A DNA stretch of 48,642 bases from a virus: positions 1-48,642 of the IMG/VR virus record IMGVR_UViG_3300020027_000012; one strand, written 5' to 3'. Position 1 is the stretch's first letter. Each line of letters starts with the position of its first letter. The translations under genes were made by a program, and so were the position numbers. The notes below the pieces were generated by a model that saw nothing but the letters and a program-made list of their open reading frames with translations, did not search any database and was not told the origin of the DNA. Shown here piece after piece: positions 35,560-46,553 of this stretch.

Positions 35560-37299
35560 GTGGCATTCTCGCCAGCGGTTCCACACGTCCCGTCGCAAGA
35601 CGCTGAGCCGCCGCGTTCGCCGCCCCGCCGTCCACACGGTCAAGTCGCTCCGGTCAAGCAGTCGGAGCGCTTCCGCATCCCCGGTCGGTTCGGTGACATC
35701 TCAGCGTCCCGACTGACCGGCATCTTGTGGACGCTCGACCGCGGCTACCTCGAAGACTGGGCCGACCTCGTCGAGTACGCGATCAGCAGCGATGCCGATC
35801 TGCAGTCGATGTATACGACCACGATCACGCGCATCACGCAGGCGACGTGGAAGGTCATCCCGAACAAGTACGGTAACCAGTCCGACGCCAAGCTCGCAGC
35901 TGAGTTGTGCAACGAGCAGCTTGGCCGGTTGCAAGGCTGGCGTCTGGCGAAGACCACGCTCTTGCATGCCATCGGCCTCGGCTACCAGCCGATGGAAAAA
36001 GAGTGGGCTGAGCCGAACAGCGTCGACCGTAAGAACTTCGTGCGCGCGCTGCACTTCAGGCACGCTCATCGGTTCAGGCTGGACACGCAGTACAAGTACA
36101 GGCTGTACGATCGAGGCAGCGACGCCAACCTGCTGAAACATTCGCCGTACGGCAAGGTGCTCGACCCCAACCGGTGGATCGTCCACAAGCACCAAGCAGT
36201 AGCGGGGTACGCGACTACGGCCGGTCTGATGCGTGCCGGCATCTGGACGTGGATGTTCAAGCGCTGGGCTGAGAAGGGTTACGTCCGCGTGCTCGAGCGG
36301 AACGGCGCCCCGTACATCTACTTCCAGTGCACCGACGATACGCCGCAAGCGGTGCGCGACAAGATGGTCGAGTTCCTCGAGGACCTGCACACCGAGAAGG
36401 CTGCAGTAGTCGAGGGCGGCGGGAGTCTCCAAGTGATCCCCGGCGCTGCCATCACCGGCACGCCACTGCACGAGCTCTACCTCAACAAGGCCAACGCGTC
36501 GTTCGCCAAGTTGTGGCTCGGCTCGTCCGACCTGACAGACCCAGGGGCGAACGGCTCGAACGCTGCAGTCAACACACGTGCTGGCGTAACAGCCGACCCG
36601 CGCATGGTGGCGTACGGGCTCGAGCTCGGCGAGACCGTGAGCGACCAGCTGTTCAAGCAGGTGCTCGAGATGAACCGCCATTTGTTCGGCGGCAGGCTTG
36701 CCCCGGTACCGACGTACGAAGCGAACACCGCGAGTGACGAGGTGCAGGTCGACAAGCAGGACCTGGCTGAGCAAAGCGGTGGCAGCATCACGGTTGGCGC
36801 ACTCGACGATACGCTCGACACGGGTACTCCTGATCCGATGGCGGCCGGCGACGCTGCAGCCGCGGCAAGCGGTGGCATTCAACCCGTGGCGGCATCGGCA
36901 GAGAAGGCAGCAGACACAGCGCTCAATGGCGCGCAGGTCGCGTCGATGAAGGACCTCGTTATCGCCGCAGCCACAGGCCAGATGCCGCGTGACTCGGCGA
37001 AGGCCATTATCAAACGCGCGTTCCAAATGGACGATGCCGCCGCCGACGAGGTGCTCGGTTCGATTGGCAAAGGCTTCCAGCCTGACGCAACCCCTGACCC
37101 AGAGGGGGTGCCGATGACGGCCTCGGACCCAAAAGCGCTGTCGACATTGGCGGCGTCCGAGTCAGCGCCGAAACGGAAGCGCTCGACCCGCAAGCCAGTA
37201 GCGTCGTCATTGGCCCAGACGACTTTGCCGATTTCATCGCACTCAGCGAGAGTGCTCGCCGAGACGCTTCGCGGCGTATCGGACGACCCGGAACACTAA
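35560..37299 (+). CDS. portal protein (DUF935, Mu gp29-like)
   Basis: The body (residues about 45-430) follows the DUF935 portal pattern: LTGILWTLDRGYLEDWADLV, TITRITQATWKVIPNKYG, NRWIVHKHQAVAGYATTAGL, VVEGGGSLQVIPG and GANGSNAAVNTRAGVTADPR. It is followed by NGAQVASMKDLVIAAATGQM. Portals form the dodecameric vertex for DNA entry and tail joining. The last 65 residues look out of frame: the expected DUF935-type C-terminus is instead encoded in the -1 frame from 37098 and continues into the next gene. GTG 35560 is the only usable start. Confidence 0.87.
   Translation: MAFSPAVPHVPSQDAEPPRSPPRRPHGQVAPVKQSERFRIPGRFGDISASRLTGILWTLDRGYLEDWADLVEYAISSDADLQSMYTTTITRITQATWKVIPNKYGNQSDAKLAAELCNEQLGRLQGWRLAKTTLLHAIGLGYQPMEKEWAEPNSVDRKNFVRALHFRHAHRFRLDTQYKYRLYDRGSDANLLKHSPYGKVLDPNRWIVHKHQAVAGYATTAGLMRAGIWTWMFKRWAEKGYVRVLERNGAPYIYFQCTDDTPQAVRDKMVEFLEDLHTEKAAVVEGGGSLQVIPGAAITGTPLHELYLNKANASFAKLWLGSSDLTDPGANGSNAAVNTRAGVTADPRMVAYGLELGETVSDQLFKQVLEMNRHLFGGRLAPVPTYEANTASDEVQVDKQDLAEQSGGSITVGALDDTLDTGTPDPMAAGDAAAAASGGIQPVAASAEKAADTALNGAQVASMKDLVIAAATGQMPRDSAKAIIKRAFQMDDAAADEVLGSIGKGFQPDATPDPEGVPMTASDPKALSTLAASESAPKRKRSTRKPVASSLAQTTLPISSHSARVLAETLRGVSDDPEH
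37098..37299 (+). other. portal/gpF overlap with G5 run, candidate -1 frameshift
   Basis: Both the portal frame and the -1 frame are open here. At the G-run 37104-37108 (GAG GGG GTG in the portal frame) a -1 slip would re-pair GGG with GGG. The -1 frame reads DPQASSVVIGPDDFADFIAL and on into ASIVRKAGSIEALDATLKG, a DUF935 C-terminal pattern. It has no ATG, GTG or TTG until 37311. A missing G in the sequence would give the same picture. Confidence 0.55.
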
Positions 37300-37310
37300 T
37301 CGTTCGTGGC

Positions 37311-39077
37311 GTGCGTGAGGCTGCTGATGCGCTGGTCGACGCGCGCGGTGAACTCGCATCCATCGTTCGCAAGGCGGGCAGCATCGAGGCGCTGGACGCG
37401 ACGCTGAAGGGTTGGCATCCGAACACCGATAGCTGGGAACAACTCGGCGACAGCATCTTCATCCCGGCCGTGATGAGTGACCTCGCCGGCCAGTTGATGG
37501 TGCGCGGATCCGAAGCGCACACGATCCAACTCGACGACAAGGACAAGCCGCCCTTCCTCGACCTGCCGTGGGATGAGGCGATCGCGGAGTTCAAGGCACG
37601 CGGCATCCTCAAGCCGACTGAACTCTCGACGCTGCTCAAAGACTACGGCCAGCGCGCGGACAAAGCGCGGCAGTTGATGCTGGCTCAGGTGCAAGGCTTC
37701 GTGCGCACCGAGCTCGAGAAGAGCCTGACCGAGGGCGGCACGTTCAAGCAGTTCGCTCAGCGCATCGACGAGGGTGGCGCGACGTTTGGCATCAGCGCGG
37801 ATGACCCGGCGTACCTCAACATGGTGTTCCGTACAAACGTGCAGAGCGCGTACGGAGCCGGTCGCTACCGAGCGATGACTGATCCGGATGTGATGGACGA
37901 GCGGCCGTACTCGGAACTGCGTACTGCCGGTGACGGTCGTGTGCGTGAGGAGCACGAAGCCGGCGAAGGCACTGTGACCCTCATTGGTTCACCAGCGTTC
38001 CGCCTATGCTCGTGTCCACTCGGCTTTAGTTGCAGGTGCTGTCAGGTCACACTGACGCGAGATGAGTTAGCGGGCCGTCATGTCATCGAAGATGTGGCGG
38101 ACCTACCCGCTGGATTCAAACCAACACCTGGATTCGAAGGGCCGCCGGTAGCCAAGATCAACGCGCTCACACCGAAGCTCGCACCCGTGCTGCAGCAGAA
38201 GCCGTTGCCTGTGCCAAACGTACCGATTGCTTCGCCTGTGGTAGCGCCAGCGGCGGTGGCAGAACCGAAGCGTGCCGAGCCTAAGGTCGAGGCGCCTGTT
38301 CCCCCGTCCAAAACCCTGCCAACAGCACCTGCGCCAGAGCGCAAGCCGAAGACGCTGCCCGTGGCGAAGCAGCCCAAGCCGGTGCCAGCTGCGGCGGCGG
38401 AGCCGGAAGCAGCCCCCACAAAGCAGGAGCCTCCAAGCGTCAGGCTAGGGCCGAATGCTGAGAAGGTGTTCGGGAAGCAACTCAGCGACAAGGACATAGA
38501 CGAACTTGTTGGACAGAACGCCAAGCTACCGGACGGGTATTCGGTCAAGGTAATACTTCATGATCTCGACGTGTCTGTGTCAGGAGATATCCGCGATGCT
38601 AGCGGCGTGAGCGTCGGGTCTTTCCATCGTATCTTCGAGAGGAAGAATGGAGAGTTGATCGTCCATCATAACTACCTGCAACTACAGGATAGCGAGCAGG
38701 GCAAGGGGATTGGAGCGGCGATATTCAACGCGCAGGTCGACTCCTACGAGAAGCACGGTGTTGCAAAGGTGGAACTCGCCGCAGCCTCAGTCGGCAAATA
38801 CGCGTGGACGAAGGCCGGCTTCGACTGGCACGCTGACGAAGACTTCGGAGACGGCGCGATTGACCACTTCGTACGAGCTAAGGACTGGTTGAAGGAGGAC
38901 TTGCGCGCGCTTGGCCTTTCGGCGAAGGCAACTACCAAGATTCTTACCAACGTGAAAACGCCACAGGACCTGTCGCGAGTTGAGTACAAGGGTGAGAAGG
39001 TGGGCAAGAGCGTGCTGCTCAGCTACGATGAGATCATTCAGATGAGTCAGACTCCGGCCAAGATCAAACGTCTATGA
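37311..39077 (+). CDS. Mu gpF-like minor head protein fused to a GNAT-like domain
   Basis: Residues 1-65 repeat the DUF935 portal C-terminus. Residues about 80-250 match SPP1 gp7/Mu gpF minor head proteins (FLDLPWDEAIAEFKARG, NMVFRTNVQSAYGAGRYRAM, YSELRTAGDGRVREEHEAGE). A Pro/Ala/Lys linker covers 275-380. Residues 385-545 contain LQLQDSEQGKGIGAAIFNAQ and VGKYAWTKAGFDW, the acetyl-CoA loop and end of a GNAT fold. The head part helps assembly; the GNAT-like part may modify a phage or host target. GTG 37311 lacks a clear ribosome site, so translation may come from frameshifting. Confidence 0.8.
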   Translation: MREAADALVDARGELASIVRKAGSIEALDATLKGWHPNTDSWEQLGDSIFIPAVMSDLAGQLMVRGSEAHTIQLDDKDKPPFLDLPWDEAIAEFKARGILKPTELSTLLKDYGQRADKARQLMLAQVQGFVRTELEKSLTEGGTFKQFAQRIDEGGATFGISADDPAYLNMVFRTNVQSAYGAGRYRAMTDPDVMDERPYSELRTAGDGRVREEHEAGEGTVTLIGSPAFRLCSCPLGFSCRCCQVTLTRDELAGRHVIEDVADLPAGFKPTPGFEGPPVAKINALTPKLAPVLQQKPLPVPNVPIASPVVAPAAVAEPKRAEPKVEAPVPPSKTLPTAPAPERKPKTLPVAKQPKPVPAAAAEPEAAPTKQEPPSVRLGPNAEKVFGKQLSDKDIDELVGQNAKLPDGYSVKVILHDLDVSVSGDIRDASGVSVGSFHRIFERKNGELIVHHNYLQLQDSEQGKGIGAAIFNAQVDSYEKHGVAKVELAAASVGKYAWTKAGFDWHADEDFGDGAIDHFVRAKDWLKEDLRALGLSAKATTKILTNVKTPQDLSRVEYKGEKVGKSVLLSYDEIIQMSQTPAKIKRL

Positions 39078-45591: not shown

Positions 45592-46176
45592 ATGCGTAAC
45601 GAACGATTCAAAGCCTGGGCTGTGACATGCGACGAAGCGATCGACACTGAGTCGATCGACTTCGATGTCATGAAGGAATACGTCGAGACGCGTGACATCA
45701 AACTCATCGCTCAGTACGTCAAGCCCGGCATGAAGCCGATCACCTATCACGTCCGCGCCGTGCACCACTCGATGTGGGAAGGCTACGTGATGGCTGGTGG
45801 CGACCACGAATCGGTCAAGTATCGCCGCGCATTCATGTGCGGCATCGACCGTGTTGAGGATCTGCCGAGCAAGGATGGCACGACCATCACGCTCGAACCG
45901 AAGCTCAAGATCGGCGCGATCAAGGTGTTCACTGAGGATGAGATCAACGACCGGTTCGCTCCGAGCGAAGTGCTCGAGATTGGGTCGGTGATCTTCCAAC
46001 ACTCTTTTTTGCCCCTGAGGAATACGCTCACCTGGGAGCTGCCGCGTATGTGTGTCGCACTGTTGGCAGACCGGAAGTTCCTATCTGTGGATGCGAGCCT
46101 GAGCACTGCCGCGACAACGACCAGCGCGACGCCCTCAAGCACAACCGTAACGACACCGGAGACAGCGAGCGCCTGA
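45592..46176 (+). CDS. tail assembly chaperone G (short form)
   Basis: The N-terminal 137 residues (FKAWAVTCDEAIDTESIDFD; MKEYVETRDIKLIAQYVKPG; ITLEPKLKIGAIKVFTEDEI) form the conserved part. The zero frame ends in a Ser/Thr-rich tail (TTTSATPSSTTVTTPETASA) after T TTT TTG at 46005-46011. Such pairs lie between the tail tube and tape measure and help fold the tape measure. ATG 45592 has GAGG upstream. Confidence 0.85.
   Translation: MRNERFKAWAVTCDEAIDTESIDFDVMKEYVETRDIKLIAQYVKPGMKPITYHVRAVHHSMWEGYVMAGGDHESVKYRRAFMCGIDRVEDLPSKDGTTITLEPKLKIGAIKVFTEDEINDRFAPSEVLEIGSVIFQHSFLPLRNTLTWELPRMCVALLADRKFLSVDASLSTAATTTSATPSSTTVTTPETASA
46005..46011 (+). promoter_or_regulatory. slippery heptamer for -1 ribosomal frameshift
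   Basis: T TTT TTG is in the correct phase (TCT TTT TTG in the zero frame). A -1 slip gives TTT TTT GCC CCT GAG and continues as APEEYAHLGAAAYVCRTVGR, open to 46553. This is the classic XXXYYYZ site of siphophage tail chaperone genes. Confidence 0.9.
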
Positions 46177-46553
46177 GACAAGGTCGCCGCCGGGTGCGGC
46201 TCTCGTACCTCTGTGACTGCGCTGGTGAGCGACCCATAGGACGAGAAGCCGACAAGATGACCGAGTCGATTCGAGGAGTGGTGCAGGAGATGACGGGCAT
46301 AGAACCTGTCAGTTGTCCGTGGCGCGCGTTCTCTTATCCGCTCGTGACCGACGTCCTCAAAGCCTTCCAGTTCTTCGAGTCCGGCAACCTGAACGTTGCC
46401 CTGCCCGAGCCGAGCCACAAGCTTGTCGAGGCGCTGGGCTTCTGGAGTCAGGTCAATAACCGCCTGCAGTCCAAGCAGATGGAGTTGGACATCGCGAAGC
46501 GCAAGGCCGAGGCGACGGCGACTCAGCAAGAAGCACAGACGAGGCGCCGGTGA
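46011..46553 (+). CDS. tail assembly chaperone T part (made as GT by frameshift)
   Basis: This is the -1 frame extension of the chaperone; the mature GT product is residues 1-140 of G plus this part. It contains a Cys/His-rich segment (RPEVPICGCEPEHCRDNDQR), GIEPVSCPWRAFSYPLVTDV and a charged C-terminal helix (NRLQSKQMELDIAKRKAEAT) that may bind the tape measure. An independent start (GTG 46050) exists but is not needed. The stop overlaps the tape-measure GTG. Confidence 0.82.
   Translation, partial: APEEYAHLGAAAYVCRTVGRPEVPICGCEPEHCRDNDQRDALKHNRNDTGDSERLRQGRRRVRLSYLCDCAGERPIGREADKMTESIRGVVQEMTGIEPVSCPWRAFSYPLVTDVLKAFQFFESGNLNVALPEPSHKLVEALGFWSQVNNRLQSKQMELDIAKRKAEATATQQEAQTRRR

Follow-up and report, generated by a model that had tools for sequence, protein, structure and literature searches.

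Programmed -1 ribosomal frameshifting near the end of a viral portal gene very probably yields two products, a portal of 579 aa and a portal-MuF fusion of 1172 aa. The locus lies in the window, i.e., the whole stretch of 48,642 nucleotides that we analysed, which comes from an IMG/VR virus record. A first-pass annotation had proposed a programmed -1 frameshift creating a portal-gpF fusion. Comparison strongly supports this part of the proposal, but not the placing of the slip at a run of five Gs (G5).

Portal and gpF in two overlapping frames

In the window, the portal and gpF frames overlap, gpF being in the -1 frame relative to the portal. The features of the region are the following:

35560-37299, + strand: portal gene read in the zero frame (frame 1), with a Mu-type core (profile match to PF06074, E 3.3e-38; PHROG 113) and a length of 579 aa when counted from the listed GTG
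37098-39077, + strand: -1 frame (frame 0), encoding the portal C-terminal domain, then gpF/MuF, with a GNAT-like domain at the C-terminal end
37102-37110, + strand: Shine-Dalgarno (SD)-like element GAGGGGGTG, probable upstream stimulator, which includes the G5 run (37104-37108) and is predicted to pair with the 16S 3' tail
37128-37134, + strand: C_CCA_AAA (CCCAAAA), a slippery heptamer at which the -1 slip would probably take place; the overlap contains no other perfect X_XXY_YYZ in frame
37135-37299, + strand: alternative portal tail in the zero frame, made when no slip occurs (54 aa by translation, then a stop)
37218-37520, + strand: displaced portal C-terminal domain, -1 frame, from conservation, hhalign (over 37290-37520) and a confident helical model
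37701-38042, + strand: gpF/MuF domain, -1 frame (PF04233, E 3.3e-11; PHROG 220, E 4e-27)
38673-38855, + strand: GNAT-like domain at the C-terminal end of MuF (PF13673, E 0.002, under the curated cut-off)

The first-pass annotation had read this layout correctly: the portal stops at 37299 in frame 1, frame 0 is open from 37098, and from there it contains no ATG, GTG or TTG until GTG 37311, the portal C-terminal domain being joined to gpF/MuF without an intervening start codon. The G5 run is likewise located where it had been placed. Codon-usage scores reveal a gradual hand-over: frame 1 is clearly coding up to ~37100 and frame 0 from ~37300, both are weakly positive at ~37120-37180, and frame 2 is negative throughout the overlap region. 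The listed start of the portal, GTG 35560, has no SD-like sequence and the true start may therefore be elsewhere; the product sizes of 579 and 1172 aa assume that this GTG is used.

The usual portal C-terminal domain is absent from the portal's own frame and is found in the -1 frame, where a portal-like C-terminus had already been noticed in the first pass. The similarity of gpF to proteins of other phages starts at ~37575. Upstream of this position, the -1 frame encodes a helical domain (DDFADFIAL...SDLAGQLMVRG), whose conservation among 12 relatives begins at DDFADF, i.e., before GTG 37311. When the -1-frame peptides of 12 relatives were compared with the C-termini of 61 ordinary Mu-like portals, hhalign gave an E-value of 4.6e-6 and a probability of 86.5%, and the frame-1 portal tails had no match in the same comparison. 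Because the -1-frame profile matches ordinary portals while the frame-1 tails match nothing, the portal C-terminal domain has moved into the gpF frame. This identity, drawn from sequence profiles, is firm for the window's family only: in the Spirochaete-type and other groups, the displaced domain matches ordinary portal C-termini weakly (hhalign, E 0.0019, probability 14%), and hhalign detected no significant similarity between the displaced domain of the window's family and those of the other groups. Searching a phage collection by tblastn with the displaced domain region alone returned chance hits only. The predicted model of the whole -1-frame region has a mean pLDDT of 84 and is poor only in its first 23 residues; Foldseek found no significant match to it in the PDB, and in BFVD it retrieved MuF proteins together with some entries labelled as portal or protease, which may be fusions. 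The end of the MuF protein (38439-39077) consists of a proline-rich linker and the GNAT-like domain, whose PF13673 match is below cut-off.

Conservation of the layout among relatives

Single-protein scans found no relatives with the portal and one distant locus with gpF, so that alignments were needed to find relatives. An alignment-based scan provided five relatives at 34-46% identity, and later scans more. The family set comprises 36 loci, namely the window, 11 relatives and 24 distinct later ones, which constitute a held-out test because they were found after the pattern had been formulated on the earlier loci. This last scan gave 29 new contigs (24 after removal of near-copies), and 29/29 showed the heptamer together with the two-frame layout. 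Wherever a family relative has both genes, gpF overlaps the portal in the -1 frame, and neither there nor in the window do portal and MuF form one uninterrupted ORF. The two-frame layout is thus conserved throughout the family; a G5 run, whose conservation the first-pass annotation had suggested checking along with that of the layout, is not kept in all relatives.

The slippery heptamer and its SD-like element

At the place homologous to the window's CCCAAAA, 36/36 family loci carry C_CCA_AAA or C_CCT_TTN (C_CC[A/T]_[AAA/TTN]). Among 4609 window codons, only two in-frame heptamers of this kind occur, including the tail-chaperone candidate described below; the 2767 upstream portal codons contain none. 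The encoded residues vary (Pro-Lys, Pro-Phe or Pro-Leu) while Pro is invariably encoded by CCT or CCA, which together represent 26% of the Pro codons in family portals, and the base preceding this codon is C in every family locus; this points to a constraint acting on the nucleotides. Several heptamer types are already present among diverged family members. Since the 36 loci include close relatives, the heptamer counts are not independent and multiplying their probabilities would overstate the case. Taken with this caution, CCCAAAA at 37128-37134 is probably the -1 slip site.

In E. coli dnaX, an SD-like sequence upstream of the slippery site stimulates -1 frameshifting. A strong SD-like element is present within 30 nt upstream of the heptamer in 34/36 family loci, the exceptions, where it is weak, being L009 and L263. 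Its distance to the heptamer is 8-21 nt, mostly 13, the window's 17 nt being farther than usual. The duplex energy of GAGGGGGTG with the 16S 3' tail is -12.1 kcal/mol, which beats every control window of the same gene, and the family mean is -10.2 vs -3.8 kcal/mol in control windows (P = 3e-9 on 14 diverged loci). The element is translated in different phases: the window has EGV, many relatives have GGA, and VEA, QEA or PEV occur elsewhere. It often uses codons that are rare there, e.g., GGA (34/940 glycine codons). As GAGGGGGTG spans the G5 run and matches the family's anti-SD-binding element, this run is most likely a part of the stimulator and not the slip site. A downstream RNA structure 3' of the heptamer is unsupported in pseudoknot-free modelling (mean z -0.43).

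A survey of portal/gpF pairs

The survey covered 139 non-redundant portal/gpF pairs, which we sorted into classes, as well as 10 single-ORF fusions. The -1 pairs with at least 50 aa between the portal stop and the gpF core form the displaced-domain class, and 52 of its 54 loci have a perfect in-frame heptamer in the overlap, vs 7.7 expected from codon shuffling. The corresponding counts are 0/26 for ordinary -1 overlaps (Fisher P = 5e-19 for the difference between the two classes, relatedness being ignored) and 2/46 for +1 overlaps, vs 4.6 expected. Of the two displaced-domain loci that lack a heptamer, one, L055, possesses an ATG of its own at the portal stop.

On a gpF tree, the frameshift type occupies three main clades. 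One is the window's family. The second comprises mainly Spirochaete prophages, with members from Thermodesulfobacteriota and Nitrospirota, and carries A or T runs; the third, with A runs, contains RR1-B, RcapMu, RcWaterboi and EBPR siphovirus 4, and includes isolated Rhodobacter and Rhizobium phages. No SD-like enrichment was found in these A/T-run groups. Single-ORF portal-MuF fusions are scattered over the tree (L022, L050, L057, L068, L069, L091, L101, L108, L132 and L143). The tree was built quickly, and because its deep forks are weak and some of its branches long, it cannot fix the number of origins of the frameshift type. The Spirochaete-type prophages of loci L094-L119 and L181-L198, mainly from Treponema, share the displaced layout together with long A or T runs.

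Alternative explanations

The main alternative raised by the first-pass annotation was a sequencing or assembly error, the true gene being a single in-frame portal-gpF fusion from which a G is missing. Single-ORF fusions do occur (10 loci), and two close loci of one Spirochaeta MAG are one A apart, A9 with two frames in L106:3729 and A10 with one frame in L108:1914, a difference that is either a true frameshift/fusion switch or an error. However, the same -1 layout has been recovered from many independent metagenomes, in every family relative with both genes, the heptamer is present in every case, and the coding signal across the overlap is mixed, with no abrupt switch of frame. The missing-G alternative is refuted by this conservation, its probability being next to negligible, and, judged by the loci compared, the two-frame layout is genuine. 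A slip at the G5 run itself would profit from a -1 frame that is open at that point, but GAG GGG GTG does not have the form X_XXY_YYZ and the relatives retain the SD-like element and the counterpart of CCCAAAA (36/36) rather than the G5 run, which makes this site extremely improbable.

Two further explanations leave aside ribosomal slippage. The C-terminal domain and MuF could form a separate protein, translated by an independent or coupled start from GTG 37311, which lies 11 nt past the portal stop, just as L055 uses its own ATG for the domain plus gpF. Against this, no SD-like sequence precedes GTG 37311, the conserved -1 domain begins upstream of it, and among relatives the first start codon is found anywhere from 3 to 106 codons past the heptamer (102 in L012, where it falls within the domain); moreover, such a start would account for neither the heptamer nor the SD-like element. 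We regard it as quite unlikely to be the source of the domain, although a start at GTG 37311 may give a minor extra product. Alternatively, the RNA polymerase could add or drop a base at the site. The A8-A9 runs of RcapMu, RcWaterboi, EBPR4 and RR1-B and the A or T runs of most Spirochaete-type loci speak for such transcriptional slippage, which is possible at these runs. But the site of the window's family is CCCAAAA or CCCTTTN and never a long run, and its SD-like element indicates the ribosome; for the window, this explanation is exceedingly unlikely.

Proposed mechanism and its meaning

According to the programmed -1 frameshift model, ribosomes translating the portal mRNA would arrive at C_CCA_AAA while the upstream GAGGGGGTG pairs with the tail of the 16S rRNA, and some of them would slip back by one base. 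Without the slip, translation would give the 579-aa portal missing its usual C-terminal domain. With it, the product would reach 1172 aa, i.e., 525 aa of portal followed by 647 aa with the portal C-terminal domain, MuF and the GNAT-like domain. The predicted fusion junction is ...TASDPK/SAVDIGGVR... (the slash marking the junction), with SAVDIGGVR as the -1-specific tryptic peptide and a missed-cleavage peptide that would contain TASDPKSAVDIGGVR. Because portals assemble as rings, which are dodecamers in well-studied tailed phages, the rate of slipping would set the number of portal subunits with a covalently attached MuF. What the comparison shows is the layout, the heptamer and the SD-like element with their conservation, as well as the homology of the displaced domain to portal C-termini. 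We infer from this that ribosomes slip, how often they would do so, what part the SD-like element would play and how many fused subunits a virion would hold.

Frameshifting could thereby act as a copy-number control at the portal vertex, with perhaps one or few fused subunits per ring; the C-terminal domain would hold MuF and be absent from the other subunits, and the arrangement would have several origins and would have brought along MuF cargo, e.g., the GNAT-like domain. We consider the chances for and against this broader scenario to be evenly balanced. To our knowledge, how MuF copy numbers are set is not generally known. Portal rings are symmetric, yet MuF is present in few copies (SPP1, PMC6316719). 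If true, the fusion of MuF to a fraction of the portal subunits by frameshifting would explain these numbers directly and in a way that can be tested. The portal C-terminal domain might then serve MuF instead of the ring, and the portal/gpF genes would be incompletely annotated in several phage groups, including the isolated RcapMu, RcWaterboi and RR1-B. The window's family, with its SD-like element and C_CC[A/T]_[AAA/TTN] at near-fixed spacing, offers a ready comparison set for studies of frameshifting.

Comparison with known systems

In tailed phages, tail chaperones as well as capsid and tail proteins are known to be produced by frameshifting (PMC5009743, PMC6316719, PMC4378225), and single-ORF portal-MuF fusions are known as well. 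A frameshift at the portal gene is apparently new: within the open-access literature, to which our search was mostly confined, we found no paper describing a portal-MuF frameshift, and the texts consulted (PMC5009743, PMC6316719) name no portal among the frameshift-extended virion proteins.

In the tail-assembly chaperones of the lambda G/GT type (Xu, Hendrix and Duda 2004, as cited in PMC4378225 and PMC6316719), a -1 slip on an X_XXY_YYZ site near the end of the first gene lengthens a minor share of the product of a structural-assembly gene, and the window would do likewise. The gene pair differs, being portal and MuF here, and the window has a separate tail candidate, T_TTT_TTG at 46005. This candidate belongs to a probable tail-assembly chaperone pair (45592-46553) with its own -1 site (46005-46011) and a -1 frame open over 45942-46553. 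The frameshift-extended capsid and tail proteins of T7/T3, A2, PSA and SPP1 (gp17.1*) (PMC5009743, PMC6316719) are similar in that the frameshift appends a C-terminal domain to a fraction of the copies of a virion protein; unlike them, the window's extension holds a whole second gene, MuF. With E. coli dnaX the window shares an SD-like element, here a candidate stimulator, upstream of the slippery heptamer, whereas dnaX also has a downstream hairpin and its frameshift gives a shorter product.

The closest earlier hint that we found is the GenBank record of RcapMu (JN190960; L201, 18571-21524), whose genes 36/37 have the same layout as the window. It notes that the portal is 'shorter than related mu-like phages; possible +1 frameshift would allow readthrough', and sees no good ribosome-binding site for the start of MuF. 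The frames show a -1 and not the annotated +1 relation, with A_AAA_AAA at the A-run, and RcapMu has no SD-like element, unlike the window's family.

A C-terminal GNAT-like domain makes the window's MuF resemble those MuF proteins that carry C-terminal cargo domains. In the single-ORF fusions of Microbacterium phage clusters EA3, EA5, EA8 and EB (PMC7302621), portal and MuF are covalently linked, as predicted for the window, but there every portal copy bears MuF, while in the window only shifted ribosomes would make the fusion. Finally, the SPP1 MuF protein gp7 enters the procapsid in few copies by binding strongly to the portal gp6 (PMC6316719); these are two separate proteins held by a strong non-covalent interaction, where the window is predicted to use a covalent link.
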